Part shown: piece by piece, positions 7,891-61,841 of the stretch
Numbering within the stretch: the stretch's first letter is position 1
How the letters are laid out: every line of letters begins with the position of its first letter
Source of the DNA: Akkermansia biwaensis
GTDB taxonomy: Bacteria > Verrucomicrobiota > Verrucomicrobiia > Verrucomicrobiales > Akkermansiaceae
DNA length: 64,000 nt
Direction of reading: 5' to 3'
Assembly: GCF_026072915.1 (NCBI RefSeq)
Contig: NZ_AP025943.1
Coordinates: 3,100,001 to 3,164,000, forward strand
The notes under the pieces: model-generated
Databases searched by the model: none
What the model was told of the DNA's origin: nothing
The model's input: only the letters and a program-made list of their open reading frames with translations
Translations under genes and position numbers: made by a program

Positions 7891-7912
7891 TTCCTCCCCG
7901 GACGGGGAGGAA
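7891..7912. terminator. Candidate hairpin terminator downstream of the beta-barrel gene
   Basis: TTCCTCCCC (7891-7899) pairs with GGGGAGGAA (7904-7912), a 9-bp stem with a 4-base loop. It lies just past the stop of the leftward outer-membrane gene at 7934. It lacks a clean run of T, so this is only a candidate. Confidence 0.4.
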
Positions 7913-7933
7913 AGACGCCCCCGGAGGCCGTTG

Positions 7934-8782
7934 TCAGAATCTGTACACGGCTTCCACGCCCACGCGGATGCGGAAGTCTTCAATGGTGCTCATGCCGGTA
8001 TAGCGGCGGATATCGGAACGCGTGTTCCCCGCCCAGTCAAACTGGATGAAGGGAATGACGCGGAAGCCGTTCTGCGAATCCACGCCGGAAATGCGCACGG
8101 GAGCCGCCAGCTTGATGTTGAACTGGTCGAATCCGGCCACGCCGGCGCCCCAGTAGCTGGAGGAATAGCTGGTGCCCGCGCTCAGTTCCAAATCCACCTT
8201 TTCATGAATCAGGCCGCTCCAGCGCCTGCCCGCATTCAAATCGATGCGCCAGCCCGTCATGCCGTAAAAACCGTACTGGACATCCAGAGCGCCGAAATAG
8301 CCGTGCCCCGGATCGTCGTACGCCAGCCCGGCGGTAAAGGATTGGGCCACGGAATGGGGGGCCTTGCCCGTGTATTTGCTCAGATAGCCGGGAAGACCGC
8401 CGTAATTGAATTCATAACCGCCCCGGAAAGTCAGGTTCGGGAACAATTCCTTCACGGCCTTCCAGTCCGCGTCAAAAGCGTTCTTGTCGCTCAGCAGACC
8501 GTCGCAGAAGGCCAGGTATTCCGCACCGATTTCCTGCTTCCAGTCCTTGACAAGGTTCAAGTCCACTTCCCCGCCGAAGGTGAACACGCCGCTGCGATTC
8601 AGCAGGGAGGAGGCTACCAGGTCCTTGTAGGCATAGCGGGAGTCGTAGCCAATTCTGGCCGCGCCGCTGATCGTATCATTGTAGGCACTTGCCGGCCGGG
8701 GATCATATCCGTATCCGTCATAGGCGCCGGCGGAAACCGCGGCCAGGGCTCCGGCCGTCATGAACAGGGCTGTTGCTTTCAT
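7934..8782 (-). CDS. Secreted outer-membrane beta-barrel-like protein
   Basis: A 282-residue protein with a signal peptide (MKATALFMTAGALAAVSAGA) and a mature part made of alternating short beta-strands rich in Tyr, Gly and aromatic residues (RIGYDSRYAYKDL, FTFGGEVDLNLV, LTFRGGYEFNYGG, FGALDVQYGFYG). It ends in FRIRVGVEAVYRF; a terminal Phe on an amphipathic strand is the usual C-terminal signature of barrels folded by the BAM complex. It is therefore probably a small outer-membrane barrel. Cargo or function is unknown. It is followed on the same strand by the TPR membrane protein. Confidence 0.72.
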   Translation of the reverse strand: MKATALFMTAGALAAVSAGAYDGYGYDPRPASAYNDTISGAARIGYDSRYAYKDLVASSLLNRSGVFTFGGEVDLNLVKDWKQEIGAEYLAFCDGLLSDKNAFDADWKAVKELFPNLTFRGGYEFNYGGLPGYLSKYTGKAPHSVAQSFTAGLAYDDPGHGYFGALDVQYGFYGMTGWRIDLNAGRRWSGLIHEKVDLELSAGTSYSSSYWGAGVAGFDQFNIKLAAPVRISGVDSQNGFRVIPFIQFDWAGNTRSDIRRYTGMSTIEDFRIRVGVEAVYRF

Positions 8783-8940
8783 AGTAAACTTATCTTAACC
8801 ATTCCACGCCGTCCAAAGCAAGCAGAATCCCGGACGCACGCGGAAAATGCGCCAGGGGCCATTTCCACCGCCGGAGCATGGTGAAATAATGCAGGGTTAG
8901 CCTTGGAGAACAAGCCCGTGACCTGTATGCTGGCGCCGTC

Positions 8941-9684
8941 ATGGAGTGGAATGCGGATTTTTATGAAGACAAGCACGGCTTTGTCGCGGACTACGGGAAA
9001 GACCTGCTCTCCCACGTTCCGGACAATCCGGGACAGGCCATTCTGGACCTGGGCTGCGGCACGGGCGCACTCACGCAGGAACTGCTGGCCAAATCCGCCC
9101 ATGTCGTCGGGGCGGACGCTTCCCCGGACATGGTGCGCAAGGCGCGGATGCTTCACCCGGACATCGACTTCCGGGTGGTGGACGCCTGCCGGATGCCGTG
9201 GTCCAACCGGTTCGACGTCGTTTTCTCCAATGCCGTTTTTCACTGGATTTCCGATCAAAAGGCCCTGCTGGAAAACATTTTCCGCGTGCTGAAACCCCAA
9301 GGCAGGCTGGTCTGCGAATTCGGCGCCGTCCGCAACATACACCGCATCCAGCAAGCCTTTCAATCCAGCCTTTCCCGGCAGAAAAGGCATCATGAAAATC
9401 CCTTTTACTTCCCCACCGTGGAGGAATACCGGAAACTGGTGGAACAGGCCGGACTGCACCCGGAACTGGTCATGGATTACGACCGCCCCACGCCGCTGAA
9501 GGACGGGGAGAACGGCTTGCGCAACTGGGTGCGGCAGTTTTTTGCCTCCGACCTGTCCCCTCTGCCGGGAGCCGGCCGCATCCGGATTCTTGAAGAGATG
9601 GAGTCCGCCCTCCGGGACGAGCTGTGGGACGGCACCCAATGGGTGGCCGACTACCGACGCATTCGGGTCATAGCCGTGAAATGA
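8941..9684 (+). CDS. Class I SAM-dependent methyltransferase
   Basis: A 247-residue methyltransferase. It has motif I ILDLGCGTGALTQEL (S-adenosylmethionine-binding GxGxG), VVGADASPDMVRKAR, and motif IV-like FDVVFSNAVFHWISDQ. The N terminus WNADFYEDKHGFVADYGKDLL and the FHWI segment resemble trans-aconitate 2-methyltransferase and related small-molecule methyltransferases, but the substrate cannot be fixed from sequence. Cytoplasmic. It is transcribed divergently from the beta-barrel gene and its nearest downstream neighbour is 242 bases away, so it is probably monocistronic. Confidence 0.85.
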   Translation: MEWNADFYEDKHGFVADYGKDLLSHVPDNPGQAILDLGCGTGALTQELLAKSAHVVGADASPDMVRKARMLHPDIDFRVVDACRMPWSNRFDVVFSNAVFHWISDQKALLENIFRVLKPQGRLVCEFGAVRNIHRIQQAFQSSLSRQKRHHENPFYFPTVEEYRKLVEQAGLHPELVMDYDRPTPLKDGENGLRNWVRQFFASDLSPLPGAGRIRILEEMESALRDELWDGTQWVADYRRIRVIAVK

Positions 9685-9926
9685 CATTTTCCGCACCCGC
9701 TTTTCCATGAAAGGAAGGTTTCCTTTCCGTGCAGAGCTGCCACGGAAGCACCGGATATCCGGCTAAAGGAGGTTTTCGCGGAGCCACGCCCGGGCTTTTC
9801 CTTCTTTTCCTTCTTTTCCTTCCCGCATCCGGTCATTCCGGGTAAAAAGGGGAACTTCCGGAACTGCATGCGGGGTACGCGCATAATGCTTGAGAGTTCT
9901 CCGGTCATTTTGTACAACCCCCGGCA

Positions 9927-11312
9927 ATGAGTACGTTCACTCCTTTTGAAGAAAAGATGGAGTCCGCGGGCATCTCCACCGCAGCCATCAAGGCATTTTC
10001 CCGCTGTTACGAAGCTCTCGTTTCCAACCATTCCGGCATGATCCCCGAAACGGACATCAGTCCGGCGGACCAGGTGGCGGACTGGACGAACATCACGGAT
10101 TCCACGGCACCGGCCGGGAAAGACCTGATTTCCCAGTGCGTCTGCATCAAGCTCAACGGCGGCCTGGGAACGAGCATGGGACTCCAGAAGGCCAAGAGCC
10201 TGCTCAAGGTGAAGGGGGAGGACACTTTTCTCGATCTCATCGTCAGGCAGGTGAAACACCTGCGCACCGTATCCGGAACCCCGGTGCGCCTGCTGCTCAT
10301 GAATTCCTTCTCCACCAGTGCGGACACGCTGGCCTATCTGGAAAAGTATGCGGCGGACGGTTTTGCCGACGCCCATCAGGTGGAACTGATGCAGAACCGC
10401 GTGCCGAAGATTTTGGCGGATACGCTGGAACCAGCCTCCTATCCGCAGCAGCCCGAACTTGAATGGTGCCCTCCCGGCCACGGGGACCTGTACCCGGCCC
10501 TGCTGGGTTCCGGCTGGCTGGACCGGCTTCTGGAAGACGGCGTCAAGTATGCCTTTATCTCCAATTCCGACAATCTGGGAGCCCAGCCTGACATGAATTT
10601 CCTGCGCTGGTTTGCGGAAAGCGGAGCCCCCTTCGTCATGGAAGTCACGCGCCGCACGGAGGCGGACAAGAAAGGCGGCCACCTGGCCGTCAGGAAGTCC
10701 GATGGTCACCTGATCCTGCGGGAGGTAGCCCAGTGCCCGGACGCGGACATCCCCGAATTCCAGAACATTTCCAAGCACCGTTATTTCAATACCAACACGC
10801 TCTGGATCCGCCTGGATTCCCTCAAGCAGATTCTGGACGCCAACGGAGGCGTACTCCCCCTTCCCATAATCCGGAACAGCAAGACGGTGAACCCCAGGGA
10901 CCCGAAGTCCGCCAAGGTGTTCCAGCTGGAAACGGCCATGGGCGCGGGCATCGAATGCTTCCCCGGCGCGCGCGCCGTCAATGTGCCGCGCTCCCGCTTT
11001 TTCCCCGTTAAAACCACCTCCGACCTGCTTTTGCTGCGTTCCGACGCGGTTTCCGTAGATGCAGACGGCAAGGTGGCCCTGGCTCCGGAACGGAACGGAA
11101 CCGCCCCCATCGTGGACCTGGACCCCGGGCTGTACAAGCTGGTGGATTCCCTGGACAGCCTCGGCCTGCCTTCCCTGGTGGGGCTGGACAAGCTGACCCT
11201 GCGCGGCCACTTCCATTTCCAGGACGGGGCCGTCCTTCAAGGCACCCTGCTGATGGAGAATAACACGGAGGAAACGAAGGAAATCCTTCCTGGCGTTTAT
11301 GCTGGAGCCTGA
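9927..11312 (+). CDS. UTP--glucose-1-phosphate uridylyltransferase, eukaryotic (UGP2) type
   Basis: A 461-residue UDPGP-family pyrophosphorylase making UDP-glucose from UTP and glucose-1-phosphate. The nucleotide-binding loop CIKLNGGLGTSMGLQKAKSLLKV and the PVRLLLMNSFST, EWCPPGHGDLYPALLGSG and YAFISNSDNLGA segments are those of the eukaryote-like UGPase family, not of bacterial GalU. UDP-glucose would supply the glycosyltransferases in the same window. The C terminus has the beta-helix-like end (LRGHFHFQDGAVLQGTLLME). It overlaps the next gene by 14 bases, so translation is probably coupled. A low-complexity TTCCTTC-type run precedes it at about 9798-9823. Confidence 0.9.
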   Translation: MSTFTPFEEKMESAGISTAAIKAFSRCYEALVSNHSGMIPETDISPADQVADWTNITDSTAPAGKDLISQCVCIKLNGGLGTSMGLQKAKSLLKVKGEDTFLDLIVRQVKHLRTVSGTPVRLLLMNSFSTSADTLAYLEKYAADGFADAHQVELMQNRVPKILADTLEPASYPQQPELEWCPPGHGDLYPALLGSGWLDRLLEDGVKYAFISNSDNLGAQPDMNFLRWFAESGAPFVMEVTRRTEADKKGGHLAVRKSDGHLILREVAQCPDADIPEFQNISKHRYFNTNTLWIRLDSLKQILDANGGVLPLPIIRNSKTVNPRDPKSAKVFQLETAMGAGIECFPGARAVNVPRSRFFPVKTTSDLLLLRSDAVSVDADGKVALAPERNGTAPIVDLDPGLYKLVDSLDSLGLPSLVGLDKLTLRGHFHFQDGAVLQGTLLMENNTEETKEILPGVYAGA

Positions 11313-50233: not shown

Positions 50234-50581
50234 TCTTTTTGCTCCGGAAGTTTTTTTCTTTTTCCCACCGGATAAAACGTCGGGAGCCGAAAGAACGGAG
50301 CATGTTTTCCGGACAAAAGAGGAAAGAGCCCGGTCATCGTCCAGTTCCGTCACCAGGAAATGCGGTTTGGCACCGGGATAAGGACTGCCCTGCTCCTGTT
50401 CCGGGAGCATCTCCAGCCCGGGAGCCGTCACCTTTACAAACAACTGGTTGTCGCATACCAGACCGAAATATTTCCGGTCACAGTACAGACCGTACTCCCC
50501 GAACATTTTCTTGAAGGAAATTTCCCCGGCATGCCGGAGCTGGAAACAAACATATTCTACAAAATCCGGAGACGAGGCCAT
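50219..50581 (-). CDS. TfoX N-terminal domain protein
   Basis: A 120-residue protein. FVEYVCFQLRHAGEISFKKMFGEYGLYCDRKYFGLVCDNQLFVKVT matches the TfoX/Sxy N-terminal domain, named after the competence regulator of Haemophilus. Stand-alone N-terminal-domain proteins are widespread and their function is not established, so a competence role should not be assumed. The C terminus is strongly basic (GGKKKKTSGAKRNRRL). It is convergent with the TlpA-like gene and its stop lies in that gene's terminator hairpin. Confidence 0.8.
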   Translation of the reverse strand: MASSPDFVEYVCFQLRHAGEISFKKMFGEYGLYCDRKYFGLVCDNQLFVKVTAPGLEMLPEQEQGSPYPGAKPHFLVTELDDDRALSSFVRKTCSVLSAPDVLSGGKKKKTSGAKRNRRL

Positions 50582-50880
50582 GTCTTATATTCCCATATAC
50601 ACGGCCTTCCCTGCAAGCTGTAAACGAACATCTTTTGTATCCATGATGCCTTTTATGGAATCCGTTCCGCCATCACTCGTTTTCATCCTGCGGCGATTCG
50701 GAAACCTTTCGCGGAAAAACCGTCCCTGCCGTCTTCCCCTCAAACCGCTGCAAATCCGTTCTTATCCCGTTCACGGGTGCTGGGGCACCTCTTTCCCTGC
50801 TGCTTTGAACTCATGCGAAACATAAAACAGGCTTTACAGCAAAAAATTTTCAAGATACTTTACGCCCACGCTTTTTGCAT
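50582..50880. other. Intergenic region upstream of tRNA-Ser
   Basis: A 299-base gap with no convincing coding sequence. The last 40 bases, AT-rich before the tRNA (AAAAAATTTTCAAGATACTT around 50841-50860), probably contain the tRNA promoter. Confidence 0.35.
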
Positions 50881-50968
50881 GGAGAGATGGCAGAGCGGTT
50901 TAATGCAGCGGTCTTGAAAACCGCCGTGGGGAAACCCACCGTGGGTTCGAATCCCACTCTCTCCGCCA
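50881..50968 (+). tRNA. tRNA-Ser (anticodon TGA)
   Basis: An 88-base class II tRNA including the encoded CCA. GGAGAGA (50881-50887) pairs with TCTCTCC (50958-50964), discriminator G at 50965, CCA at 50966-50968. The anticodon stem-loop GCGGTCTTGAAAACCGC shows anticodon TGA (reads UCA). A long variable arm (GTGGGGAAACCCACC region) identifies it as serine. The T-arm is GTGGGTTCGAATCCCAC. It marks the left border of the lower-GC accessory region; no repeat of its 3' end was found further right. Confidence 0.97.
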
Positions 50969-51019
50969 GTTTTTCCCATGTGCAGAATAGGTTGTCCCCC
51001 AGGTATGAGGCAACGTCTC

Positions 51020-51056
51020 CCCGCTGAAGCTTGTTCCGGGGAGATACGTTCCGACA
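51020..51056. other. Hairpin between tRNA-Ser and the glycosyltransferase operon
   Basis: AACGT-C-TCCCCG pairs with CGGGGA-GAT-ACGTT around a 13-base loop (about 51020-51056). It lies just beyond the stop of the last glycosyltransferase gene (51077, leftward). It could be a weak terminator for that operon, although no T run follows. Confidence 0.4.
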
Positions 51057-51076
51057 CCAAATGTTGCGTTATGGAC

Positions 51077-51886
51077 TTAATCCAGGGATAGATCCACGTA
51101 CGGACTTTTTGCCTCCTGAAGCAGCGGAAGGATATCAGTCCGGAAACGATTCACCAACCCGGGATTTTGAGGAAGAGGAATGACCTCATCTTCCCTGAAT
51201 TCCCGGATAACATTTTTGTATCTGGCTTTTCTCCGGAAGTGCATCCAGCAGGCTCTGGAATAGGCTTTGATGCAGGGGTGACGGGCAATGTCCACTTCGT
51301 AAGGTGCAGCGACTCCAAAATGCGGCAAATTGTTCATGCCGCAAATTAATGAATCACTTCCCCCGTTTCTTGGCCGTGGACCAAAGATCATCAGCCTTTT
51401 CTGAAAAACCAGAGTATTATGGCCCCCTATGGAAACGCAATCTTCCGGTTTGCGTGCCATTTGGAAAGCCTCCTCCAATTCCTGCGTAAAATAGATTTGA
51501 TCAGCATCCACTTTACCTACACAGAATGATTTCCCGGCGTAAAGATCACGGATGAAATCCATTCCGAAATTCAAGTAGGTATCAATCCTGTTTTCCCTGG
51601 GAAGAATCCTCAAGTCATCTACGGAACGGGGAGGAACCACATGATGCGGATAATGAAGAAAGCTCATGCGACACTCATAGTTATCTTCAATATGCCGTTT
51701 CCATGCTTCCATGAGCTCTATACTGCGGTCCTCCGTATCCGACCACAGAATAATAATATGATCCAGAACGGGAGCTACACTTAAAAGGCAGGGAATAATA
51801 GTATTTTCTTCGTTGAGAATACGAAGAAAGCCTATCCGTTCCAACCTTTCTTCCGAAGAGCTTGCTGTTTGTATGAGAGATTTCAT
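51077..51886 (-). CDS. GT2-like glycosyltransferase family protein
   Basis: A 269-residue protein. RIGFLRILNEENTIIPCLLSVAPVLDHIIILWSDTEDRS at the N terminus and FCVGKVDADQIYFTQELEEAF, with a DAD in place of a DxD motif, suggest a GT-A fold transferase of the GT2 or a related family that opens with an INEENTI-type motif. MIFGPRPRNGGSDSLICGMN follows. No membrane segment. It is the last gene of the five-gene leftward operon, 41 bases behind the GT10 polyprotein gene, so it probably adds another sugar to the same glycan. Donor and acceptor unknown. Confidence 0.68.
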   Translation of the reverse strand: MKSLIQTASSSEERLERIGFLRILNEENTIIPCLLSVAPVLDHIIILWSDTEDRSIELMEAWKRHIEDNYECRMSFLHYPHHVVPPRSVDDLRILPRENRIDTYLNFGMDFIRDLYAGKSFCVGKVDADQIYFTQELEEAFQMARKPEDCVSIGGHNTLVFQKRLMIFGPRPRNGGSDSLICGMNNLPHFGVAAPYEVDIARHPCIKAYSRACWMHFRRKARYKNVIREFREDEVIPLPQNPGLVNRFRTDILPLLQEAKSPYVDLSLD

Positions 51887-51927
51887 GTTGATCCTGGCAG
51901 TGTTTAAATATGGATGATATTATAATT

Positions 51928-54900
51928 TCAGGCGGATATGCTTGTTGCAGATTCACTTGAATTTTCTCCGCATCCGCTTTGCGTTATTTTATGAAACATT
52001 TCGTTCATCCATGAATGAATCAATTCCGGTTTTTGCTTTACCAATTGTGTGATTTTTCCATGAACGAGGGCAATGTCCTCATCATTTTCAGCGTGATGAA
52101 CATATGTTTTTGTCAGATAAGGCTCTAATCTTCTTGTTGCTTCTGCATCACAGTCCCAATGTGGATTTGAACTGTAAAAACCAAACAGGTGCAGACCGGA
52201 GAATTTTTCCTGCCGCAGTATCGCCAGAGGATCTCCATAACGTTGGAAAAGAGACAAAAACGTTTTTTTCTTCCTTACCTGTTCATGCGCCGGAGAGATG
52301 TATTTCCCCTGATGCATAGGTGATTCGCCGCTGAAATCAAGCGGCCAGGGACATCCCCAAACGCCTAGGTGAAGATAAGGAAAATCTTTTTTCAACCGAA
52401 AGGCCAAAATCAGGGCCATGAGGGCATCCTTGCAAATGCCTGTCAGAAGAATGGATTTGAGTCCGGGCATCTTCCTTATTTTATGTTCGATATCAAGCTG
52501 CATGCGGTCCAGCAGGAGAAGCCCTTCCCATTGATGATGTTTAATGCCCATGAAGGGACTCCGCAAGTTACGGAATACGGAATTATTGCCGTCATAGAGA
52601 TTAATGAGCAATTCATCCGCATATTTATTCACTTCATTAATGGAAGAGGAACAATGGTAATTCAGGTATTGGTATTTTCCCTTTTCCGTTTCATAAAATT
52701 CCTCCCTGCCCCAGTTGTCCCATTGAAGAACGAGCTTTTCTTCATCATGATGAAGAATAGCTGCAGTATCATTGCCGTGGAGCCTGCGTCCCCGTTTCCC
52801 ATGTATACGAAATTGATCCGTCCATTGGGGATGCCTGATGACAATGTCCTGCACGGATTCCTGTGGCATTGAGGGAATCTCTAAAGAAGCGGAACCCGGC
52901 AATGGAGGAGAGGAATAATGAAATTCCCCAGCCTCATCCTCCAGAATGGGAATTACCCTTCCATGGGCGATGAGGGACTGAATATAGGCATTTTCCACAG
53001 GAGCATGATGTTTGGGAATTCCGGGAGCTCTCACATTCATATCCGTATCTCCCAAGTAATAGAGTTGGGCATCAGGAAACAGATAGTCCGCCAGGCAAAG
53101 AGCTTTGCTCAATGTCGTGAAGTTAGGGGTACTCCGATGAACTGCTCCCGGCATGAATTTCCAGTTTTTCAGACCTTCCCGGCAGGCAAATTCATTGGAA
53201 TACTCCAATTCTTCATTATTGAAATAGATTTCCGGGATTTCAGGAAGCATATCCATATGCCTTTCCGCAGGAGAAAAAGACAGATACCCGGGAAAGCATG
53301 AAATCAAAAGGATATCCGTTCTTGTTCCCGCCAAACCGGAATTCAGGTTATCCATTTTACTAACCCGCATGACTTGGTCACAGGAATCAACAAATGCTGA
53401 ATAATTGCGTTTCAAATTCCGTTTATTGGAGATGATGCATACTCGTTTCTTGTGTCCTTCAGAAGCCAGAAAACGCTGATATTCTTCATTTCCGCTTAAT
53501 CTTGACAACAGCTTCCATTCCTCTTCCGTATCAATTTGCAAACAACAGGGAAAATCGTTTGAATACGGACGGGAACCGTTATCAAACAGAGTGCCGGATT
53601 CCTGAAAATGCTTCCGTGTGATAATATTAATATTGCCATCAAAGAAATAGAAAAATTTCCTGGCATCCTGTTCGCGATGAGCCACGTGAAATTGCCCATC
53701 CAGATGGCCGATCATTTTAATTCTATGGGCCGTATAGGCTGAGTGAATTTCCCCTTTTTCCATGTCTTCCGCCATCTGGCGCAAGAGTCCTGCCCTGCGC
53801 AAGGGAGAAGTCGGTTGAAGGACGGCCAATATTTCACAAGAGAATCTGGACAGAACCTGGCGAACGCAATTTTCCATTCTCCGGTCATCCACCGTTTCCC
53901 GGAAATAACGGATGCCTTCCCGGCGGCAGCATTCCATGATATCTTCACTGTCCGTACTGACAACCGGTACAAACCCTTCCTGAAGAGCATACGAAACAGA
54001 ATATAAGAATAACGGACGCCCTGCGAACAAGCGACAGTTTTTACCGGGACAGCGCTCCGAGTTTTTTTTGGCCGGAATAACGGCCAGTTTATAAAACAAA
54101 CGCGAGGCCGTGTCTTCTTTACCTGGCTCAAAGACAGAAGAAACGGATTTTTTCACCATCCGGGGCAGCCTGAGTTCCATTTTCCCATGCCATTGCTTGC
54201 CATCATCATACCGGGACATTACAGGATAGCCATGATGTAAGCGCCGCGCCTGGATGTGCGGCCTGCCGGTACGGCATATTTTCCCCGTTGAAACTACCAT
54301 GGAAAAGAATTCCTCCAGGCGATGCATGTATTCCCTGATGTCCGGCCGGCCGGGAGCAAAAACGGGACCATCCATGTAACTCAGATAGAGCTCTTCATCC
54401 TGGTCAAGCCGGATAATGTATTCAGCCAGGGCTTCCGGGGATAAAAAATCCCCGGCATTGACAAACCGTGACGGATTGACTTCCTTTCCGACATCGGGTG
54501 CACCCCAGTAAATGGGGAGGGAAAGGGCTGCCAGAGGGTCAATCAGTTTTTCAGTAGTGTAACCGGCAGCCGGGTAGTTTTCAAAGGCAATCGTAAATTT
54601 ATAGGATGAACAGAAGGCGATCTTGTCCCGCACACATTCTCCCATGTTGTTCAGCACCGTACCTCCGCAATCTACGGGCTTGTATTGGGAAAGAAGACGC
54701 ATAAAGTGAATTCTTTCCGGAGAATTCCCATTGGAATATACAAAGTTGCAAAAACGCGTGTGCCTGGACAAAAGAGATCTTTTATCCTTGGGATATTGTT
54801 CCACTACCCCAGTCCTTTTTATATAATCCCTTCCCATCCAGTTGGGAAGACGCAAATGGCATTCGGGATAGAGGACATCCTCCCTCATGAATGAAATGGC

Positions 54901-55140
54901 ATAGTCGCATTCATCCCACAACGGTTTTACAGATTCAGCCGTATAGAAAACCCGGATGCCTTTAAACTGGCGGTATGCATTTCCAAAGACGGAGTAAATC
55001 AGCAAATCGGCTTCATCCTGCCTATCCACAATGACCATATTCAGCCGCTCCCTTAAGACTGCTGATAAAATGGAATCATGCGGATTGAATCCCTGCCAAA
55101 AGTCGGCAAAGGCCACACGCGTCGATTTCTTGCCATTCAT
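51928..55140 (-). CDS. Multi-enzyme protein: GT10 fucosyltransferase + CMP-sialic acid synthetase-like + GT29-like + hydrolase-like
   Basis: A 1070-residue protein with four enzyme-like parts. ~60-290: GT10 alpha-1,3/4-fucosyltransferase (IRVFYTAES, FENYPAAGYTTEKLIDPL, PIYWGAPDVGKEVNPSRFVN), very like Helicobacter FucT. ~350-550: acylneuraminate cytidylyltransferase (VIPAKKNSERCPGKN, VVSTDSED, LQPTSPLRRAGLL; lysine replaces the usual arginine in IPAR). ~564-745: sialyltransferase(GT29)-like (VCIISNKRNL, VDSCDQVMRVSKM, GTRTDILLIS). ~765-830: the W-D-x-W-G module shared with two neighbours. ~840-1050: possible alpha/beta hydrolase, with G-x-C at LLTGICKDALMA. The start at 55140 gives an ATGA overlap with the upstream gene; an alternative ATG is at 55158. 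GC is low (26 of 60 bases at 53001-53060). GT10 and cytidylyltransferase are firm; GT29 and hydrolase are tentative. Confidence 0.82.
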   Translation of the reverse strand: MNGKKSTRVAFADFWQGFNPHDSILSAVLRERLNMVIVDRQDEADLLIYSVFGNAYRQFKGIRVFYTAESVKPLWDECDYAISFMREDVLYPECHLRLPNWMGRDYIKRTGVVEQYPKDKRSLLSRHTRFCNFVYSNGNSPERIHFMRLLSQYKPVDCGGTVLNNMGECVRDKIAFCSSYKFTIAFENYPAAGYTTEKLIDPLAALSLPIYWGAPDVGKEVNPSRFVNAGDFLSPEALAEYIIRLDQDEELYLSYMDGPVFAPGRPDIREYMHRLEEFFSMVVSTGKICRTGRPHIQARRLHHGYPVMSRYDDGKQWHGKMELRLPRMVKKSVSSVFEPGKEDTASRLFYKLAVIPAKKNSERCPGKNCRLFAGRPLFLYSVSYALQEGFVPVVSTDSEDIMECCRREGIRYFRETVDDRRMENCVRQVLSRFSCEILAVLQPTSPLRRAGLLRQMAEDMEKGEIHSAYTAHRIKMIGHLDGQFHVAHREQDARKFFYFFDGNINIITRKHFQESGTLFDNGSRPYSNDFPCCLQIDTEEEWKLLSRLSGNEEYQRFLASEGHKKRVCIISNKRNLKRNYSAFVDSCDQVMRVSKMDNLNSGLAGTRTDILLISCFPGYLSFSPAERHMDMLPEIPEIYFNNEELEYSNEFACREGLKNWKFMPGAVHRSTPNFTTLSKALCLADYLFPDAQLYYLGDTDMNVRAPGIPKHHAPVENAYIQSLIAHGRVIPILEDEAGEFHYSSPPLPGSASLEIPSMPQESVQDIVIRHPQWTDQFRIHGKRGRRLHGNDTAAILHHDEEKLVLQWDNWGREEFYETEKGKYQYLNYHCSSSINEVNKYADELLINLYDGNNSVFRNLRSPFMGIKHHQWEGLLLLDRMQLDIEHKIRKMPGLKSILLTGICKDALMALILAFRLKKDFPYLHLGVWGCPWPLDFSGESPMHQGKYISPAHEQVRKKKTFLSLFQRYGDPLAILRQEKFSGLHLFGFYSSNPHWDCDAEATRRLEPYLTKTYVHHAENDEDIALVHGKITQLVKQKPELIHSWMNEMFHKITQSGCGENSSESATSISA

Positions 55141-57500
55141 GACTGCTTTCTCAACCACGCGTGCCCTCCATATTTGGAAAGCGATTTATCCTTCACCAGG
55201 ATTTTAACCCTATGCTTGAGCCCCATAAGATGATAGCGGTTAAATACCAGAGTCTCAGGGAACAAATATTCCGGTCCCAGAACAAGGGGATGCCTGCCGA
55301 TCACATATTTGTTGATGTGGCTTTCATCATGCCAGACAGCTATAATTCCATTGTCGAGGTCCCGTTTGACAGCCCCTGCCAATTCCCGGCACATGGAAAG
55401 AAAGTCCCTGGCCTTTCCTCCATTGAAACCTCCGGCGACATAGTATTCCCCCTGTCCGGGAGGAATTCGCGCTTCGGACATTCCATTTTTTTCATAGGGA
55501 TAACAGGAACGGGGAAGTTCGTAAAATCCCGGATGAAGAGTCACGGCAAGTCCCTGCCGATCATTCGGAAAGATTTCCTCTCCAATGGGAGAGACCGGCA
55601 ATAACGTACCATTCATAAAATAAATGTAGTCATATTCCTGCAATTCTTTCTCAATACTTAAGAAAGTCTCAAACCGCCTTAAGGTTTCCATCGGCCAGGG
55701 ATAGAACGGCTTGCTGACAAGCGTTACATCATCAGCAGTTTTTACTTCATCATGATCCGTGAACAGAAAATAGCGGACATCGTGGCCTGGCAGAAAATAT
55801 TGCTTGGAGGCTGCATAAAAATCTTTCCAAAAGGTTATATAGCGCCCTGTAGAGATATATAGTACAGCCACTTTCTTTTTCCGTGAGGAAGGAGAATGCT
55901 GCTGATTTCCATTTCCTGAAAGGAAAAACGAACCGTCTTCTTTCCTTCTGAATGTCTCCGTTCCCCATTGATCCCATTTAAGGGTCACTTCTTCATCGGT
56001 CAAGGAAAGGACGTCAGCCCAGTCATTCCTCTGAAAACGGCATGCCCGGCCGTCAAAAACACGTACGATGTCGTACCATTGGGGATGACTGATTTCCATG
56101 AGCGATTCGGCATTGGCCCGGCTGGTGGAGATGCGCCAGTTTCTTCCCCGGAAGTCTCCCGGCACCAGTCCTCCGCGTATCACGGAAGCATTGTTGGTCT
56201 GAATGACCAAATGCATCGGAAGAGACATTTCCTGTACGTAACGGATACGGTTGCAACTCCCGGTGTCAATCATGAGCTTATGCATGAGATTATCCTCCGT
56301 AAACCCGTATCCGGAATGTCCCAGCCTTGGAGAAATCTCGGAGATTCTTCCGGGCTCCTGCTCACAGGTGATTAATTTTTCAAGGACATCTCTGCTGAAT
56401 ACCATGGTGGGACCGAAACAGCTGAAAAAGCCATTCCCGCAAAGCGGATAACCCCCACGGGCGTTCAGATATTGGCCAAAGCCGCAGTAATAACTGCTGA
56501 ATTCCGGCGGAAGATGCTGATGGAAGTCATTGACGGATTTAAAATAGTCCCTTCCGTACAAATCATCGTCGTCAATTTTGGCAAAAAGGTCGTAGTTGGA
56601 GATATCCAGATCCCGTACCGTATCTAAAAAGTTGGAAAGCTGGTTTTTGTTCGGGAACAGCCTCATTGTCAGCCGTCCTTCCTGGATGAAATGCTCAAAA
56701 AGAGGAAGAACGGTCTTGCGGTATGTTGTTTCCGGAATGCCTTTAACAGCGGCAAAAACATGGAAATTCTCATAGCTCTGGTCCATCATGCACCAGATTT
56801 GCCTCTGTAAATCCGTCAAACGCCTGTAGGAAGCAAGGCAGGCCGCAATGCGGCAGGCCGGTCTTTTTTTTGTCCGTTCATGCTGGTAAAACAAATTGTG
56901 ACGGGCAACCCGAATATTGAGTTCGCCACTGCTGTTGGCCGCCTCCAACGCAACATCTGTTGGCAGCCGATAATCGGCAAAAACCTGAATGACTTTTTTC
57001 CGTTTGCAAGAGGGAATTACCATGGCATGCGTTCCCCATACATAGGCCGTGTTGGAGTCGGTCCCTCCCGTTTTGAAATCTTCAAACAAAAGTTCATCAG
57101 ACTCAAACGGATTTCCCTGAGGCGACCAGACGGCATGGTGAAAGAGTCTGAAAATATCCGTTTCCGGGTGCTCCTCCATCTCTTTCCTCAAAGCCGCCTC
57201 CAAACGTGATGAAGCCACCATGGGAACGGCATCGCTTTCTCCGAAGATAATCAAGTCATTTCCGGCATATCTCCTGTCTTCCAATACCTGGATGAAGGAT
57301 GCCCTCAGGGAACGGACATGGGAGCGTTCCGCGGAACAAGGCTCCCGTCCGATAAATGCGGCGCTTTCCTTCTCCCGTGTATCCTTCAAGGATGAAAGAT
57401 CCCGGGTGGAAGGATAGAGTTCCAATTCATATCCCATCCGGTGCAGTTCGGAAGCTCCTTCCGCCATCTCGCCGGAAGATACAATCAAGACGCATTTCAT
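55137..57500 (-). CDS. Multi-domain glycosyltransferase: GT25-like + GT2 + GT6 (ABO type)
   Basis: A 787-residue protein. ~1-205: GT25-like domain (AERSHVRSLRASFIQVLEDRRYAGNDLIIFGESDAVP in the place of the GT25 acidic loop). ~212-445: GT2-type domain with KIDDDDLYGRDYF (Asp 310-313) and SGYGFTEDNLM. ~465-530: the shared W-D-x-W-G module (HPQWYDIVRVFDGRACRFQ, VTLKWDQWGTETF). ~543-765: GT6 domain (VAVLYISTGRYITFWKDFYAASKQYFLPGHDVRYFLFTD; VAGGFNGG; WHDESHINKY), the family of blood group A/B transferases. Instead of the animal DVD or the bacterial NxN, it has N-G-T at 630-632. It couples by ATGA to the next gene and starts 12 bases after the previous one. GT6 is firm, GT25 tentative. Confidence 0.83.
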   Translation of the reverse strand: MKCVLIVSSGEMAEGASELHRMGYELELYPSTRDLSSLKDTREKESAAFIGREPCSAERSHVRSLRASFIQVLEDRRYAGNDLIIFGESDAVPMVASSRLEAALRKEMEEHPETDIFRLFHHAVWSPQGNPFESDELLFEDFKTGGTDSNTAYVWGTHAMVIPSCKRKKVIQVFADYRLPTDVALEAANSSGELNIRVARHNLFYQHERTKKRPACRIAACLASYRRLTDLQRQIWCMMDQSYENFHVFAAVKGIPETTYRKTVLPLFEHFIQEGRLTMRLFPNKNQLSNFLDTVRDLDISNYDLFAKIDDDDLYGRDYFKSVNDFHQHLPPEFSSYYCGFGQYLNARGGYPLCGNGFFSCFGPTMVFSRDVLEKLITCEQEPGRISEISPRLGHSGYGFTEDNLMHKLMIDTGSCNRIRYVQEMSLPMHLVIQTNNASVIRGGLVPGDFRGRNWRISTSRANAESLMEISHPQWYDIVRVFDGRACRFQRNDWADVLSLTDEEVTLKWDQWGTETFRRKEDGSFFLSGNGNQQHSPSSRKKKVAVLYISTGRYITFWKDFYAASKQYFLPGHDVRYFLFTDHDEVKTADDVTLVSKPFYPWPMETLRRFETFLSIEKELQEYDYIYFMNGTLLPVSPIGEEIFPNDRQGLAVTLHPGFYELPRSCYPYEKNGMSEARIPPGQGEYYVAGGFNGGKARDFLSMCRELAGAVKRDLDNGIIAVWHDESHINKYVIGRHPLVLGPEYLFPETLVFNRYHLMGLKHRVKILVKDKSLSKYGGHAWLRKQS

Positions 57501-57512
57501 AAAATTTCAATG

Positions 57513-59768
57513 TTAAAGTTTAATCCAGGTTGGGCAGAAAATATCCTGTTCATCTTCAATATTTCCGGTAAACCACTTTTTTTGAATGAAAACCCGTTGC
57601 TGGGAGCCCAGCCACGCCCCCCACCAGGAAAAGGAGGAGCAAGAGAGGACAAGTTCCTGCATGGCCGTCAATTCCCGCAGGGCGTCCAGTGTTTCATGCT
57701 CATCCATGACTATTTCAAAACGCCTGGCTTCCGGAACATCCTCCACCAGCTTCCGGGCCAGATCCGGAGAGTCGGAAAAAACAACCAGTGTTCTGATATT
57801 GTCGGAAAGATTTTTAAACGCCTCATTAAGGAAGGCGGCATCCGGGGTATGGTACACATCCGTTTTCTGAAGGTAATCTCCCATTCTCAGATGAACGCCG
57901 GCTGTACTTTCCCGCACGGGTGCGATGAGGGGCTGGAACAGCGAACGTATTTCTTCAGCAAAATCCTTAAAATACCGTTCACTCTGAAAGTAGCCGCTCA
58001 ACGCGCCGCGACGGACCGTATCCGGGATGGACCTGTAAGAAAATCTGGATTCCCTGTATGTTACGGGATCAGAATAACCGCCATCCGGACACGGGGAACA
58101 CGCACCCCCCAAATAAGACATCAGCTTCCAGGTGTTCAAATCGTGCCGCCAGGGAATGCGGCATCCCACATCCGTTCTAAGCGCATGGGCGTAAGTGGCG
58201 GCTATCTGGAACAAATGTCTGCCTGTTCGTGAGTTTGGAATGAATTGCGTAGTAACGTATTCGGGAGAAATCTGTTCTGAATCAGAAGACAAAGACGGGA
58301 GCTTTCTGGATTTGCTCTTCTTCGGCTTCCCCGCATCCAGGCAAACGGCGCCCAGTAGGTCAAAAGGATGCTCGTCACGGTCAATGCGTCTTTCAAGGCA
58401 TTGAAGATGCAGATAACGTGACTCGCCCGGAGCATGCTGTGAAACGTGAAATCCGAATTCCTCCAACAGATATCTTAGAAAATCGGTATTCCACAGGGAC
58501 TGATGCCGGTAGGCTTCCATAAGAATGCACAAGTCATGTTCCGGAACCGGCTTTTCCCGGAGCCGTTTTTTCAAATATTGTTTAAATGCGGGAGAAATCA
58601 CCCCGTGCATCAAACGAATATCACGGAAACTCAGACGCAAAATGCCTCCCGGTTTCAAGCAACGGAATGCCTCCGCAAAGAAACGGCAGGCTTCTGGGGG
58701 CGTGACCTTGTCGATCACATGTTCCAGATAAAATGCATCTACCGAGCTATCCTTCCATGGAAGCGGACGGGTAATGTCATAGTTGGGGGAATCCAGGTTC
58801 AACCAGCCATTCAATCTCCGGTTGCCGCAGCCCAGGTGAATGTACAGCAGAGGAGACTGGTCCATGATTTCGGCACTGCTGGCAGAGGGGGGGCTTTCAG
58901 ACCACAACCGGTACAGAGAAGGCATGCCTGGGCGCTGGTGAATTTCCATTTCCGAGCCGATATAGGAATCTCCTTCTAGAAGAAGCTGTTCCATCGGCCA
59001 CATCTGCCATTTCAACGTCAGTTCCTCTTTCTGTCCAACACTCCACCAGCCATAACAGGAAGTATCACGGCGGCGGAACACCCCATTGGAATAAAACAGC
59101 ATCTCGCCTTTCCAATGGAGATGTTCTACGTCGCAAACAACTGAAGGAACTTTGTGATTGAAAGTATGCAGGGCACGCAGAATGGCGGGCGTACACCAGT
59201 GCGCCGTCACCATGTCGTTGTCCTTATACGGATAATGGACATTGCTCATGTAAAGACGGCCGGTTGACTTCAGCCGGCCTCCCAGCCTTCCTGCCAGTTC
59301 ACCCACAATCAGGTCCTCCGCTCCGCAGTCAGGAAAACCGGGCGCCTCCACAAGCTTCTCCACCATGCTTCTCTTCAGGAAATAACCCGCTCCTCCACTC
59401 GGTGAGTTGCGCATGGACACCAGCGCATCCCCGATCAGGTCATACTCATCATCAACCAGGGATTCCAAACGTCCCAAGTCCACATACGTGTCGTCATCGC
59501 ACTTGAACAACCACTCAAAGTCGTAGTTCTCAAGCGCATACACAAAGAAAGATTTCACCTTCCCCGGAAGCTCGTTGTAGCCGTCCGCTGTGTCCAGCAC
59601 CACCGTATCCCTCCTTTCCTCTTCCACTCCTTCCTTTCCTCCCACGAAGAACACGCATTCTATCCCATCCGCCGGATGCCTCAGCCACGTCTCCCTCACC
59701 GCATCCCTCTTTTCCTTCATCCGCTGGCACGAGCAGATTCCTACCAGTATCTTCACTTGCTTTTTCAT
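57513..59768 (-). CDS. Multi-domain protein: GT31-like + methyltransferase + GT11 (alpha-1,2-fucosyltransferase)
   Basis: A 751-residue protein. ~1-205: GT31/fringe-like transferase (KILVGICSCQRMKEKRDAVRETWLR, WLFKCDDDTYVDLGRLESL with DDD at 91-93, GGAGYFLKRSMVEKLVE, GAEDLIVGELA), the family that adds beta-1,3-Gal or GlcNAc. ~215-275: a divergent copy of the shared module (ELTLKWQMWPMEQLLLEGDSYIG). ~305-460: SAM methyltransferase-like (YIHLGCGNRRLNGWLNLDSP, FRCLKPGGILRLSFRD). ~504-750: GT11 alpha-1,2-fucosyltransferase (NSRTGRHLFQIAATYAHAL, GVHLRMGDY with the HxRxGDY motif at 626-632, VVFSDSPDLARKL, SCSSFSWWGAWLG). The order suggests backbone extension followed by H-type fucosylation. Starts 14 bases after the GT4 gene. 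GT31 and GT11 assignments are strong by motif. Confidence 0.85.
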   Translation of the reverse strand: MKKQVKILVGICSCQRMKEKRDAVRETWLRHPADGIECVFFVGGKEGVEEERRDTVVLDTADGYNELPGKVKSFFVYALENYDFEWLFKCDDDTYVDLGRLESLVDDEYDLIGDALVSMRNSPSGGAGYFLKRSMVEKLVEAPGFPDCGAEDLIVGELAGRLGGRLKSTGRLYMSNVHYPYKDNDMVTAHWCTPAILRALHTFNHKVPSVVCDVEHLHWKGEMLFYSNGVFRRRDTSCYGWWSVGQKEELTLKWQMWPMEQLLLEGDSYIGSEMEIHQRPGMPSLYRLWSESPPSASSAEIMDQSPLLYIHLGCGNRRLNGWLNLDSPNYDITRPLPWKDSSVDAFYLEHVIDKVTPPEACRFFAEAFRCLKPGGILRLSFRDIRLMHGVISPAFKQYLKKRLREKPVPEHDLCILMEAYRHQSLWNTDFLRYLLEEFGFHVSQHAPGESRYLHLQCLERRIDRDEHPFDLLGAVCLDAGKPKKSKSRKLPSLSSDSEQISPEYVTTQFIPNSRTGRHLFQIAATYAHALRTDVGCRIPWRHDLNTWKLMSYLGGACSPCPDGGYSDPVTYRESRFSYRSIPDTVRRGALSGYFQSERYFKDFAEEIRSLFQPLIAPVRESTAGVHLRMGDYLQKTDVYHTPDAAFLNEAFKNLSDNIRTLVVFSDSPDLARKLVEDVPEARRFEIVMDEHETLDALRELTAMQELVLSCSSFSWWGAWLGSQQRVFIQKKWFTGNIEDEQDIFCPTWIKL

Positions 59769-59782
59769 GTCTTTTCTCCTTT

Positions 59783-60829
59783 CTAGGCAGGAAGCTGTTC
59801 CACCGCTTCAAAGATTTCCTCCCAGCTGGCTACCGACGATTCCAGCCCCCCCAGCTCCATACCGCGCTCCCGAGCCGCCTCCGCCATATCCCTCCTCAGG
59901 TTCGGTTCGTAGGCCATCTTGCTGGCGTAGTAGATGAAGTCCCTTTCATGGTCGCACAGCCATCCGGTTTTGCCGTGCTCCACCATCTGGCGCCAACCTC
60001 CGCGGTTGTCCACCACCAGTACGCTTCCGCTGGCCATCGCCTCAAAGCCCACTCTCGGCCAGTTTTCCGTCGTGTCCGTGGGCTGAAGCACTATTTCACA
60101 GTGCTTGTAGAAGTCCTGCTGGCTCACCTCCCTCTGGTCGCGCGCCGTGCGTATCCACCCGTAGGGCTCTCCGATTTTCTCCCGGCTCCTCTGGTCGAAG
60201 CCCAAAAACAGGCCACGCTTGAAGAGAGGGGAGACGAAGTATTCGTAGATGTGGAGCGTGTTGGCGGCGAATTTGTCCGCGTCCTGCCGGGAGATGCGCC
60301 CGCAGCCGAAGTATTCCCCGCTTCTCTCGGCGATGAAGGGGAAGGAGTCGTTGTGGAAGTAGGGCTTGAAGGTGAGGAAGGAGATGGCCGGATCGTCGTT
60401 GCAGCGCTTGAGCAGGGGCATGTTTTTCTGGCGGACTTCTTCGTTCTGGTAGAGGAACATGGCAATCATGCCCTGCTTCATGAGTTCCTTTTCCTTGTTG
60501 AAGAGCCAGGTCATGCAGTTGACGAAGATGGTGCGCCTGGTTTTTTGGCGGATGGCGGGGAGGTTTTCCAGGTATTCGCCGTTGCAGAATCCGATGATGG
60601 CATCGCCTTCTTCCAGGACGGACCAGTCGTTGGGAGCGTGGATATGGACGCCCAGCCTGACCATGTCCAGATAGAGGATTTCGTTTTGGAAGCCGTCGTT
60701 GGTGGGGATGATGTGGACGTCAATGTCCATGTGTTTCCAGACCAGGATCTGGTGGTGGAGTTCGGTTCCCGCTCCGCCGTAGAGGCTGGGGAAGCCGTTG
60801 ACATAGATTTTCTTTAAGGAGGTGCTCAT
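59783..60829 (-). CDS. GT4-type glycosyltransferase (first gene of operon)
   Basis: A 348-residue GT-B fold transferase. SLYGGAGTELHHQILVWKHMDIDVHIIPTNDG is the N-terminal domain; SREKIGEPYGWIRTARDQREVSQQDFYKHCEIVLQPTDTTENWPRVGFEAMASGSVLVVDNRGGWRQMVEHGKTGWLC is the C-terminal donor-binding domain with the E-x(7)-E type motif (GFEAMASGSVLVVD). GC is clearly higher than in the next three genes, so the operon looks composite. It heads the leftward cluster and may start the glycan or transfer the first sugars. No promoter was assigned with confidence in the upstream AT-rich region. Confidence 0.82.
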   Translation of the reverse strand: MSTSLKKIYVNGFPSLYGGAGTELHHQILVWKHMDIDVHIIPTNDGFQNEILYLDMVRLGVHIHAPNDWSVLEEGDAIIGFCNGEYLENLPAIRQKTRRTIFVNCMTWLFNKEKELMKQGMIAMFLYQNEEVRQKNMPLLKRCNDDPAISFLTFKPYFHNDSFPFIAERSGEYFGCGRISRQDADKFAANTLHIYEYFVSPLFKRGLFLGFDQRSREKIGEPYGWIRTARDQREVSQQDFYKHCEIVLQPTDTTENWPRVGFEAMASGSVLVVDNRGGWRQMVEHGKTGWLCDHERDFIYYASKMAYEPNLRRDMAEAARERGMELGGLESSVASWEEIFEAVEQLPA

Positions 60830-61343
60830 GGGTTAATTCTCAAGTGGATTCACTGAGCGACGCTAGCACGCAAACTTTTATCCTGGCAATGGACAAGTTT
60901 GGAAAATATGGCAAAGAAATACCTGCCACCGGAGAAGAATCCTTCCCTTTTTCCACATTGCCATCCGCCTCCAAAACTCATCGATCCTCCTTAACGCTTC
61001 CAGCGTGTTTACACTGGTAGTCTCTGTTTTCAGAACAGTCGCAACCATTTACAAGGCGACTTCTTCGTCAACGGTCTCACCGCTCCCGTCCTTGTTGCCA
61101 AACGCCCGGCTTCCGCCAATACCCGACATGAATGGTTCGGATACCTCAAAGTCACCACGGCTAAAACCTGTTTTCTCTCCCTCCATGCCCTATATAATAG
61201 ATGTACTCAATAATTTATCCCCGGGAAGTGATCTTTACGAATTTAAAAATCCTGCATTGAAATTGAACTAAGTTATTTATTTTTAATAATCTTGACAGGA
61301 ATTCATTAAGTATATAAAATACTTTTTTGAATTAAAATATGTT
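60830..61343. other. Intergenic region with a decayed coding remnant
   Basis: A 514-base region. Around 60990-61210 one plus-strand frame without a start codon reads like protein (contains NHLQGDFFVNGLTAPVLVAKRP and RHEWFGYLKVTT) and is richer in GC than its surroundings, suggesting the remnant of a gene that could not be identified. An alternative 88-codon frame in the same stretch (61005-61271) is not convincing. From 61210 on the DNA is very AT-rich. Confidence 0.35.
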
Positions 61344-61841
61344 ATGACTACAATAATTTTTAATAACAGATGGATTTCAGGAATTAACCCGATAGTGATA
61401 GTGGTTTTCCTATTCCTCTGTTTCATCTGCATATTCTTTCCCGTCGTTTTATATTCATTTATCATCGAATTAAATAAGGAAACCAATGGCCATTTCATAA
61501 TTCTGGGAATCACGTCCTTTTTTTCTTTGATTTTCATTATTGCAACTTTCTACATCAGTTTGCTGATTGTTTTTGGAAAATTACATATTGTCTTAGATCA
61601 TTTTAAAATTGTTATTGACCAATATGTGCTGGGAATACGCATGGCATCAAAGCAGATTCCTTTAAGCGGCGATACCCGTATTATTCTGGAAAGCGGTCCT
61701 TCCGGTTCAAATGCCCATATCTTTAAAAACAATGGTAAGGTCCAGGCATTCCTGATGGCTCCAGTCGTATACAGTATCAAAATTCAGGAGGCAGGCAGAT
61801 CAGACGTTGTTCTTTCATCAGGTAATTATTACTGGTATTAA
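61344..61841 (+). CDS. AT-rich membrane protein, possibly 5' part of a frameshifted gene
   Basis: A 165-residue protein with two hydrophobic helices (~15-42 and ~48-76) and a soluble C-terminal part (LDHFKIVIDQYVLGIRMASKQIPLSGDTRIILESG) resembling PH-like beta strands. Composition is strongly AT-biased (19 of 60 bases GC in 61501-61560), unlike the chromosome, pointing to acquired DNA. The stop at 61839-61841 follows NYYWY. A second frame, one base back, is already open from 61826 and continues to 62374, so the two frames may once have been one gene. No family recognised. Confidence 0.5.
   Translation: MTTIIFNNRWISGINPIVIVVFLFLCFICIFFPVVLYSFIIELNKETNGHFIILGITSFFSLIFIIATFYISLLIVFGKLHIVLDHFKIVIDQYVLGIRMASKQIPLSGDTRIILESGPSGSNAHIFKNNGKVQAFLMAPVVYSIKIQEAGRSDVVLSSGNYYWY

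Follow-up and report, generated by a model that had tools for sequence, protein, structure and literature searches.

Polymodular glycosyltransferases shuffled around a new module in Akkermansia biwaensis, predicted to make a terminal host-like glycan

Organisation of the locus

Akkermansia, an inhabitant of the mucus layer, is under study as a probiotic. We analysed here a five-gene operon of Akkermansia biwaensis in which three large proteins join several glycosyltransferase domains to copies of one short module. The window, that is, the whole stretch of 64,000 nucleotides under study, comprises bases 3100001-3164000 of a single 3,175,525-base contig, and the positions given below are counted from its first base. 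Five co-directional open reading frames (ORFs) occupy positions 51077-60829 of its minus strand, on which all the features located below also lie, g5 being the first gene and g1 the last. The spacing along the operon is 14 bases between g5 and g4, 12 bases between g4 and g3, an overlap of g3 with g2, and 41 bases between g2 and g1, in agreement with a preliminary description of this DNA, which had reported five leftward genes with short gaps or an ATGA overlap.

The first gene, g5 (59783-60829), encodes a GT4-type glycosyltransferase of 348 residues (PF00534, 43 bits against a Pfam cut-off of 26.4). The following three genes encode the fusion proteins: g4 (57513-59768, 751 residues) is arranged as GT31, module, methyltransferase and GT11; g3 (55137-57500, 787 residues) as an unplaced N-terminal domain, a GT2-like domain, the module and GT6; and g2 (51928-55158) as GT10, a CMP-sugar synthetase-like domain, an unplaced middle domain, the module and an unplaced C-terminal domain. 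The length of g2 is 1076 residues from a GTG start codon or 1070 residues from the ATG at 55140, and the latter makes the ATGA overlap with g3. Finally, g1 (51077-51886) encodes 269 residues with a weak resemblance to CgtA, a beta-1,4-GalNAc transferase, below the Pfam cut-off.

A module shared by the three fusion proteins

All three fusions carry a beta-rich module of about 57 residues with the motif HPxW...KWDxWGxExF, whose consensus reads HPxWxDxxRI...R..R....DxAxVL.....LxLKWDxWGxExF.....GxY. It was located by profiles and in the predicted models at residues 471-527 of g3 (55920-56090) and 775-831 of g2 (52666-52836); the copy of g4, at residues 215-271 (58956-59126), is a divergent variant recognised mainly by the Akkermansia profile. 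A further profile was made from 32 copies of Alphaproteobacterial and viral origin, which the Akkermansia profile had itself brought in. Run against the 881 frames of the window and 60 shuffled decoys, it retrieved g3 (E 2.9e-19), g2 (E 5.7e-15) and, in third place, g4 (E 0.026). In the models of g3 and g2 the module is predicted as 6-7 short beta strands, with means over 10-residue blocks of about 79-93 in the predicted local distance difference test (pLDDT) nearly throughout, and the aromatic residues W5, W39 and W42 of alignment A3 are conserved. Among 51 copies scanned against Pfam the best E value was 0.044, with matches scattered over unrelated families; in the PDB the best profile match (E 0.0072) was to a designed protein and no sequence match was significant; and in 10 proteins the NCBIfam models all stayed below their cut-offs over the module, two matches with E >0.04 touching its first residues. 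By these searches the module is an uncatalogued, new accessory domain.

The genome that holds the window has nine copies. The module was found in 20 of 59 sampled genomes of the genus and in 19 of 387 genomes of a phylum sample, in which at most 16 candidates were scored per genome; 16 of these 19 belong to the same genus, two to other genera of the family and one to another family of the order. Three copies per frame were seen in five Akkermansia frames of 1117-1128 residues (in L086, L087, L103, L104 and L105). Pfam was run on that of L087 alone, where it detected ankyrin repeats and no enzyme acting on glycans; the frames of L087 and L104 visibly begin with a hydrophobic stretch.

Domain shuffling around the module

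A third-iteration profile search covered 41 sources (the window and 40 fetched loci, which include duplicates). It recovered 80 copies of the module from 63 frames, which form 41 clusters. Among the cluster representatives, several of which are frames cut by contig ends, 15 have the module inside the protein, 17 at the C-terminal end, 6 at the N-terminal end and 3 in some other arrangement. We scanned 40 module proteins with Pfam, 29 from Akkermansia and 11 from Alphaproteobacteria: 26 matched glycosyl-, nucleotidyl-, pyruvyl- or sulfotransferase families (L071_9944 is counted here although below the cut-off, and L158 is an arylsulfotransferase), one matched ankyrin repeats, one an unrelated family below the cut-off, and 12 no family.

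When compared by BLAST, homologues of the window domains recur beside the module in other orders. Writing m for the module, MT for the methyltransferase and X for the unplaced N-terminal domain of g3, we observed GT31-m-MT-GT11, pyruvyltransferase-GT31-m-MT-GT11, GT31-m-MT-X-GT2-m, GT32-like (Gly_transf_sug/Gb3_synth)-GT31-m-X-GT2-m, GT10-m-pyruvyltransferase, GT10-GT2-m-m and GT10-GT2-m; around the synthetase domain (CTP) of g2, CTP-mid-m-Cterm and CTP-mid-m-g1-like also occur. The locus had been described as a set of preassembled enzyme chains. The fusions themselves are clear, and lineage-specific shuffling appears to describe them better: transferase domains change places beside a single recurring module, which is also found outside glycosyltransferases.

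Catalytic domains of g4

The three enzymatic domains proposed for g4 are all above their Pfam cut-offs: Galactosyl_T/GT31 (PF01762, 44.4 against 23 bits; residues 20-108, 59445-59711), Methyltransf_11 (28.4 against 21.2 bits; residues 331-377, the core of the domain, 58638-58778) and GT11, the alpha-1,2-fucosyltransferase family (PF01531, 52.8 against 23.9 bits; residues 590-750, 57519-58001). The GT31 domain has a DDD stretch, KCDDDTYV, as read by eye in the ORF, and in the PDB sequence search g4 matched a GalNAc 3-beta-galactosyltransferase (7q4i, E 1.1e-6). A second locus of the same genome (L071, G000:C1:1448000-1467000) encodes at its positions 6607-10873 a 99% copy of g5 and a 68% copy of g4, together with a gene joining the module to a sulfotransferase-like part (PF03567, E 6.5e-4, below the cut-off). 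Apart from the fused copies, a stand-alone GT11 lies at G000:C1:486758-487141 (L001), adjoining an ORF of 249 residues.

The GT6, GT2-like and N-terminal domains of g3

The GT6 domain of g3 (residues 543-787, 55140-55874) matches PF03414 with 108.9 bits against a cut-off of 25 over residues 543-751. In the PDB sequence search it aligned with the whole of BoGT6a (4ayj) at E 3.5e-57, and the predicted structure retrieved the same enzyme with Foldseek (E 8.5e-14), the best 50 matches listed being all GT6. BoGT6a is the metal-independent, histo-blood-group A-type transferase of Bacteroides ovatus (PDB 4ayj, 4cj8). Of 13 positions taken for it from PMC3961637, 11 are identical in g3, including the catalytic Glu192, Asn95, Lys231, His239 and Arg243. 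Loss of catalytic residues had been set as a reason to abandon the assignment; the changes found are Asn97 to Thr and Thr134 to Pro, so that the NXN site reads N-G-T, with the first Asn retained and the second replaced. Asn97 of BoGT6a makes no contact with the substrate (PMC3961637).

In the alignment, two donor-pocket positions of g3 read Ala/Gly, letters identical to those of BoGT6a, a GalNAc transferase; they are the presumed equivalents of human GTA Leu266/Gly268. The role of position 266 is set out in PMC4202792. Because most of the BoGT6a positions are retained and the donor-pocket letters match, the likeliest activity that we would infer for this domain is GalNAc transfer of the blood group A type. 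Unlike BoGT6a, g3 carries its GT6 behind an unplaced domain, a GT2-like domain and the module.

Residues 213-465 of g3 (56106-56864), with an IDDDD stretch, gave no direct Pfam match to PF00535. They are called GT2 by homology, because relatives on viral contigs match PF00535 (4 of 7 scanned proteins, E 2.2e-5 to 9.5e-10; the scan did not include L200, which is nearly a repeat of L199). Among the matching proteins, L201_1119 can also be aligned directly with g3 (E 2.1e-10). The N-terminal domain (residues 1-212, 56865-57500) had been described as GT25-like. This was rejected, since Pfam and PDB profile searches gave no glycosyltransferase; among its 19 homologous stretches (alignment A6) one had a Pfam match, at E 0.096, to an unrelated family. 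Thus, of the architecture first proposed for g3, GT6 stands on Pfam, GT2 on homology, and GT25 falls. A search of plasmid records with g3 returned matches to the GT6 part only, in one Phocaeicola and one Prevotella record.

The GT10, CMP-sugar synthetase-like and unplaced domains of g2

The N-terminal part of g2 (residues 15-262, 54373-55116) matches FucT_N (PF18025, 64.3 against 27.2 bits, residues 15-108) and GT10 (PF00852, 71.5 against 23.9 bits, residues 136-262). It is similar to the alpha-1,3-fucosyltransferase 2nzw, presumably FucT of Helicobacter pylori, with E 2.1e-33 for residues 1-330 and 1.5e-31 for the whole of g2. By contrast with 2nzw, the GT10 of g2 is fused to a synthetase-like domain, two unplaced domains and the module, and it is absent from g2 of two relatives. 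The following domain (53464-54108), recognised by Pfam, PDB and Foldseek searches as CMP-ketose synthetase-like, matches CTP_transf_3 (PF02348, 42.3 against 22.6 bits, residues 359-482). The PDB sequence search also aligned g2 with synthetases of CMP-3-deoxy-D-manno-octulosonic acid (CMP-KDO) and CMP-sialic acid, and the best 50 Foldseek matches listed for the model of residues 351-1076 are nucleotidyltransferases (CMP-KDO/CMP-sialic acid synthetases, IspD, GlmU). The score for the PseF equivalog TIGR03584 (NCBIfam) was 53.1 bits, far under its cut-off of 205.7.

The preliminary description had called the middle domain (residues 561-770, 52849-53478) GT29-like, a likeness visible only by eye in alignment A4. 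H157 and E162 of this alignment are invariant in six sequences and form H-x4-E, and a stretch resembling sialylmotif L can be recognised by eye. GT29 enzymes have four motifs, with the catalytic His in motif VS (PMC10225777). Six homologues of the domain gave no match to PF00777 at E 10, a scan of the own genome was likewise empty, and there was no significant PDB match to the domain. Among 288 genomes of the phylum, 4 yielded bacterial GT29 proteins for comparison, of which two were used: hhalign gave a weak match (P 0.0062, probability 6%, 31% over 51 columns), and a profile of the two sequences ranked the g2 orthologues fourth, at a weak E of 4.6. A GT29 identity is therefore suggestive and we do not accept it.

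The C-terminal domain (51931-52653) also follows the module in frames of 386 residues in the Akkermansia genomes G016 and G060. It gave no Pfam match at E 1 and a best PDB profile match of E 0.71. The hydrolase proposed for this end was rejected, Pfam being empty for this part of g2 and for the 386-residue frame L092, and the PDB giving nothing significant. Among the best 50 Foldseek matches listed, the unplaced domains of g3 and g2 were not placed by fold either.

The g1 gene and the supply of nucleotide sugars

The match of g1 to CgtA (PF06306) has 19.4 bits and E 8e-4, below the cut-off of 21. In A. glycaniphila a fusion protein of 785 residues (L155; L097 is the same contig stretch) is arranged as CTP-mid-m-g1-like, its g1 part being 54% and its g2 part 49% identical to the proteins of A. 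biwaensis, and its C-terminal part also resembles CgtA weakly (E 1.7e-3, below the cut-off). We treat CgtA as a lead, not an assignment. Since the homologues are fused in A. glycaniphila, this arrangement may indicate that the two genes serve a common pathway.

The genome has gmd (573.7 bits against a cut-off of 415), as 6 of 14 control genomes do, and this makes a supply of GDP-fucose plausible. NeuB had no match in the genome, and was found in 9 of the 14 controls. Because it is absent, any sialic acid activated by the synthetase domain of g2 would be scavenged.

Conservation of the operon in the genus

The order g5-g4-g3-g2-g1 recurs in five further genomes (G016, G060, G070, G098 and G272) and, as far as the contig edge, in G050, where the contig stops within g4 and g5 lies off the piece. 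The survey of related genomes that had been suggested for this locus thus shows the order retained in six relatives, one of them incomplete; across these, the orthologues of g2, g3 and g4 share 71-93% protein identity. Orthologues of g2 (at least 71% identity) are present in 7 of 76 genomes of the genus, A. biwaensis included, five with GT10 and two (G070 and G098) without it. GT6 was found in 15 of the 76 (14 over the cut-off), in seven cases within frames of 789-791 residues, and 36 of the 76 match g2 at 1e-20, many through the GT10 part only and mostly in frames of 320-390 residues. The statement that each activity is usually encoded by a separate gene is borne out by these short GT10 frames: separate genes are indeed the usual case. 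In G016 and G060 a sixth gene, GT10-GT2-m-m, lies downstream.

That such large proteins are decaying or misassembled genes, joined by chance and with little activity, is in our opinion very improbable. Broken frames do exist: g3 of L142 is in two frames, a g2-like region of G008 has one in-frame TGA, and g1 of G016 is also split. However, frames of 764-791 and 1084-1085 residues are maintained open in the g2-g4 orthologues, with one g4 running off its contig, and most of the GT6 positions checked are retained; because these orthologues are conserved in order in six further genomes, the operon does not look like a chance assembly. As to the g1 homologue of G016 (L075:8667-9489), its two frames overlap and it may be broken.

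The G+C content of the operon is 0.490 (0.456-0.485 in g1-g3) against 0.582 in positions 1-51000 of the window, and this low value suggests acquisition from outside. A phase-variable promoter was considered and rejected: no inverted repeats of at least 11 bases occur in 60700-61400 or 50550-51150, and the only homopolymers of at least 8 bases within it are two T8 runs inside g2 and g3. Promoter and terminator scans performed no better than shuffled sequences.

The module in Alphaproteobacteria and on viral contigs

Ten module sequences were searched against the genome contigs of an 84,980-species collection, requiring [KQ]WDxWGxExF, so that the counts are a lower bound. At least 37 module loci were found: 16 titled Akkermansia or Akkermansiaceae, 19 Alphaproteobacteria and 2 Clostridiales. 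Samples from the gut of animals (sheep, roe deer, yak, 'Lapin') are suggested by 8 of the 19 Alphaproteobacterial titles, and the rest are uninformative. All 13 Alphaproteobacterial genomes tested hold 4-11 copies, and the module occurs in 24 of 43 genomes of the order to which one of them belongs. On these counts we rejected a module restricted to Akkermansia, and consider misbinning of the Alphaproteobacterial copies unlikely. The Clostridiales are not counted as a third phylum, as their two loci (L142 and L145) look like misbinned Akkermansia and together encode orthologues of g1-g5.

The 11 Alphaproteobacterial module proteins scanned with Pfam comprise six GT2, with the module towards the C-terminus, one arylsulfotransferase, one GT6 and three without a family. 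In the GT6 protein (L175:8212-9540) a hydrophobic N-terminus is followed by the module, and the NXN site reads N-G-D; its layout recalls type II Golgi transferases. Six small frames consist of a hydrophobic stretch and one module (L159:11955-12338, L166:7725-8180, L167:7731-8186, L168:7830-8186, L172:1396-1791 and L174:2077-2517), and are a possible surface or periplasmic form of it.

These proteins bear on what the module does. Rather than binding glycans, it might serve to dock or oligomerise proteins, perhaps as an SH3-like barrel, and so bring transferases together; we regard this as a tenable alternative with somewhat less than even odds. The 6-7 short strands predicted within about 57 residues would suit such a fold, and the module sits in three copies in an ankyrin-repeat protein and singly in the small proteins, which begin with a hydrophobic stretch and lack any enzyme domain. 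On the other hand, 26 of the 40 scanned proteins match transferase families, and W5, W39 and W42 would equally suit sugar stacking.

The module is also present on five IMG/VR viral contigs (L199-L203), where it terminates genes that are GT2-like or unplaced. Four of these contigs (L199, L200, L202 and L203) have two module genes in a row, and in L199 the pair stands one gene before a tail gene. Flanking genes of L199, L201 and L202 match phage tail or head families, and the one tested in L203 matches only families of unknown function. The gene L199_4200-5177 aligns over nearly its whole length with residues 217-526 of g3, i.e., GT2 plus module (36% identity, E 6e-51, 321 columns); it had no significant Pfam match, and two viral-contig proteins had no match in phage records. 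Since GT2 plus module exists there as a complete gene, such a gene may be a simple candidate source of this portion of g3.

In an alternative reading, GT11, GT6 and GT10 are real and the acceptors are not host-like. The operon would then make a strain-specific capsule or lipooligosaccharide repeat, with a likeness to ABO/Lewis synthesis at the level of enzyme families and a diversity driven by phage or immune pressure instead of mimicry of the host. We hold this to be a substantial possibility, although below an even chance. The same domains are joined to pyruvyltransferase and methyltransferase, and the module to GT92 and to a sulfotransferase-like part, none of which belongs to ABO/Lewis synthesis; the architectures vary between species; and GT2-like module genes lie on viral contigs, three of them near phage head or tail genes. 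Against it, GT31, GT11, GT6 and GT10 in one operon are what ABO/Lewis synthesis needs, and BoGT6a, which is the nearest among solved enzymes, converts 2'-fucosyllactose to A-antigen-like products (PMC3961637).

Discussion

We propose, with a probability of roughly 0.55, that the operon encodes domain-shuffled polymodular glycosyltransferases built around a new module, which probably make a terminal host-like glycan. This prediction starts from the domains, the module, the varied combinations in relatives and the conserved gene order, all of which are observed. Acceptors, products, location and the function of the module we infer as follows. The enzymes would work in the cytoplasm on one growing surface glycan and give it its terminal structure: the GT4, GT31 and GT2 domains would provide a galactosylated backbone, to which GT11 of g4 would add alpha-1,2-fucose (H), GT6 of g3 alpha-1,3-GalNAc (A-like) and GT10 of g2 alpha-1,3/4-fucose (Lewis-like). 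The CMP-sugar synthetase, beside a possible sialyltransferase, could allow scavenged sialic acid to be added, possibly with GalNAc from g1. The module may keep the acceptor glycan in place, or bind the transferases to one another, so that successive steps share one chain.

Several results weigh against this proposal. Three domains (g3 N-terminal, g2 middle and g2 C-terminal) lack a placement, and for the first of them profile searches with 19 homologues gave no Pfam family and no PDB sequence match. Confidence in the AlphaFold models is only partial (mean pLDDT 67.5 for g3 and 54.3 for residues 351-1076 of g2). The GT6 domain stays just under the cut-off of the NCBIfam model NF041524 (240.3 against 250 bits) and has its two altered positions. 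The compared loci were mostly fetched because they bear the module, so its company is in part selection, and transferase domains occur without it, as in the stand-alone GT11 genes L148_183, L094_10920 and L106_6013 and the X-GT2 gene L080_6397. Because the module also sits in proteins with no recognised glycan enzyme (the ankyrin protein and the small anchored Alphaproteobacterial proteins), a glycan-binding role is not forced. Lastly, the absence of NeuB and the lack of GT10 in g2 of G070 and G098 reduce the case for sialyl-Lewis.

Accordingly, the host-like blood-group and sialyl-Lewis structures put forward in the preliminary description survive in part. The families for H (GT11), A/B (GT6) and Lewis (GT10), plus GT31, are present and fused, as it had claimed; the sialyl-Lewis component is weakened, with GT29 unconfirmed by profiles, NeuB absent and two of six relatives having g2 without GT10. 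Of the four parts it had given to g2, GT10 and the synthetase-like domain hold by Pfam, GT29 is left with a weak profile match and the hydrolase is dropped.

A bolder version appears unlikely to us: the module would be a plug circulated by viruses for interchangeable glycosyl-, sulfo- and pyruvyl-transferase domains in two phyla, and the operon would yield combined A/H/Lewis-type caps plus, with g1, a sialylated beta-1,4-GalNAc (Sda/GM2-like) cap from mucin-scavenged sialic acid, these steps being fused in A. glycaniphila.

Bacterial GT10 and GT11 enzymes making Lewis and H structures are known. Bacterial GT6 enzymes making blood-group-A-like products have also been described (PMC3961637, PMC4202792). 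The Akkermansia capsule loci cps1-cps3 share with this operon the genus and a general role in surface polysaccharides, and cps1 has a GT11 gene; by contrast, cps1 as tabulated there consists of separately annotated genes in a row, among them Wza, Wzy and Wzx, and the words 'Lewis' and 'blood group' do not occur in the main text of that report (PMC13343947). In the open literature, outside which most subscription papers lie, we recognised no report on fused Akkermansia glycosyltransferases or on the module. What is new is the multidomain glycosyltransferases with a new accessory module in two phyla, the activities of bacterial GT6, GT10 and GT11 being known.

If A. biwaensis does wear A-, H- or Lewis-like sugars, this would bear on host tolerance, on natural anti-A/B antibodies and on phage or lectin binding. 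The module, which 12 of the 40 scanned proteins carry with no Pfam family, may serve as a practical tag for locating and annotating unnamed proteins. Moreover, as an apparent cut-and-paste unit joining transferase domains in two phyla and on viral contigs, it may give a handle on how bacteria rewire their surface glycans quickly.

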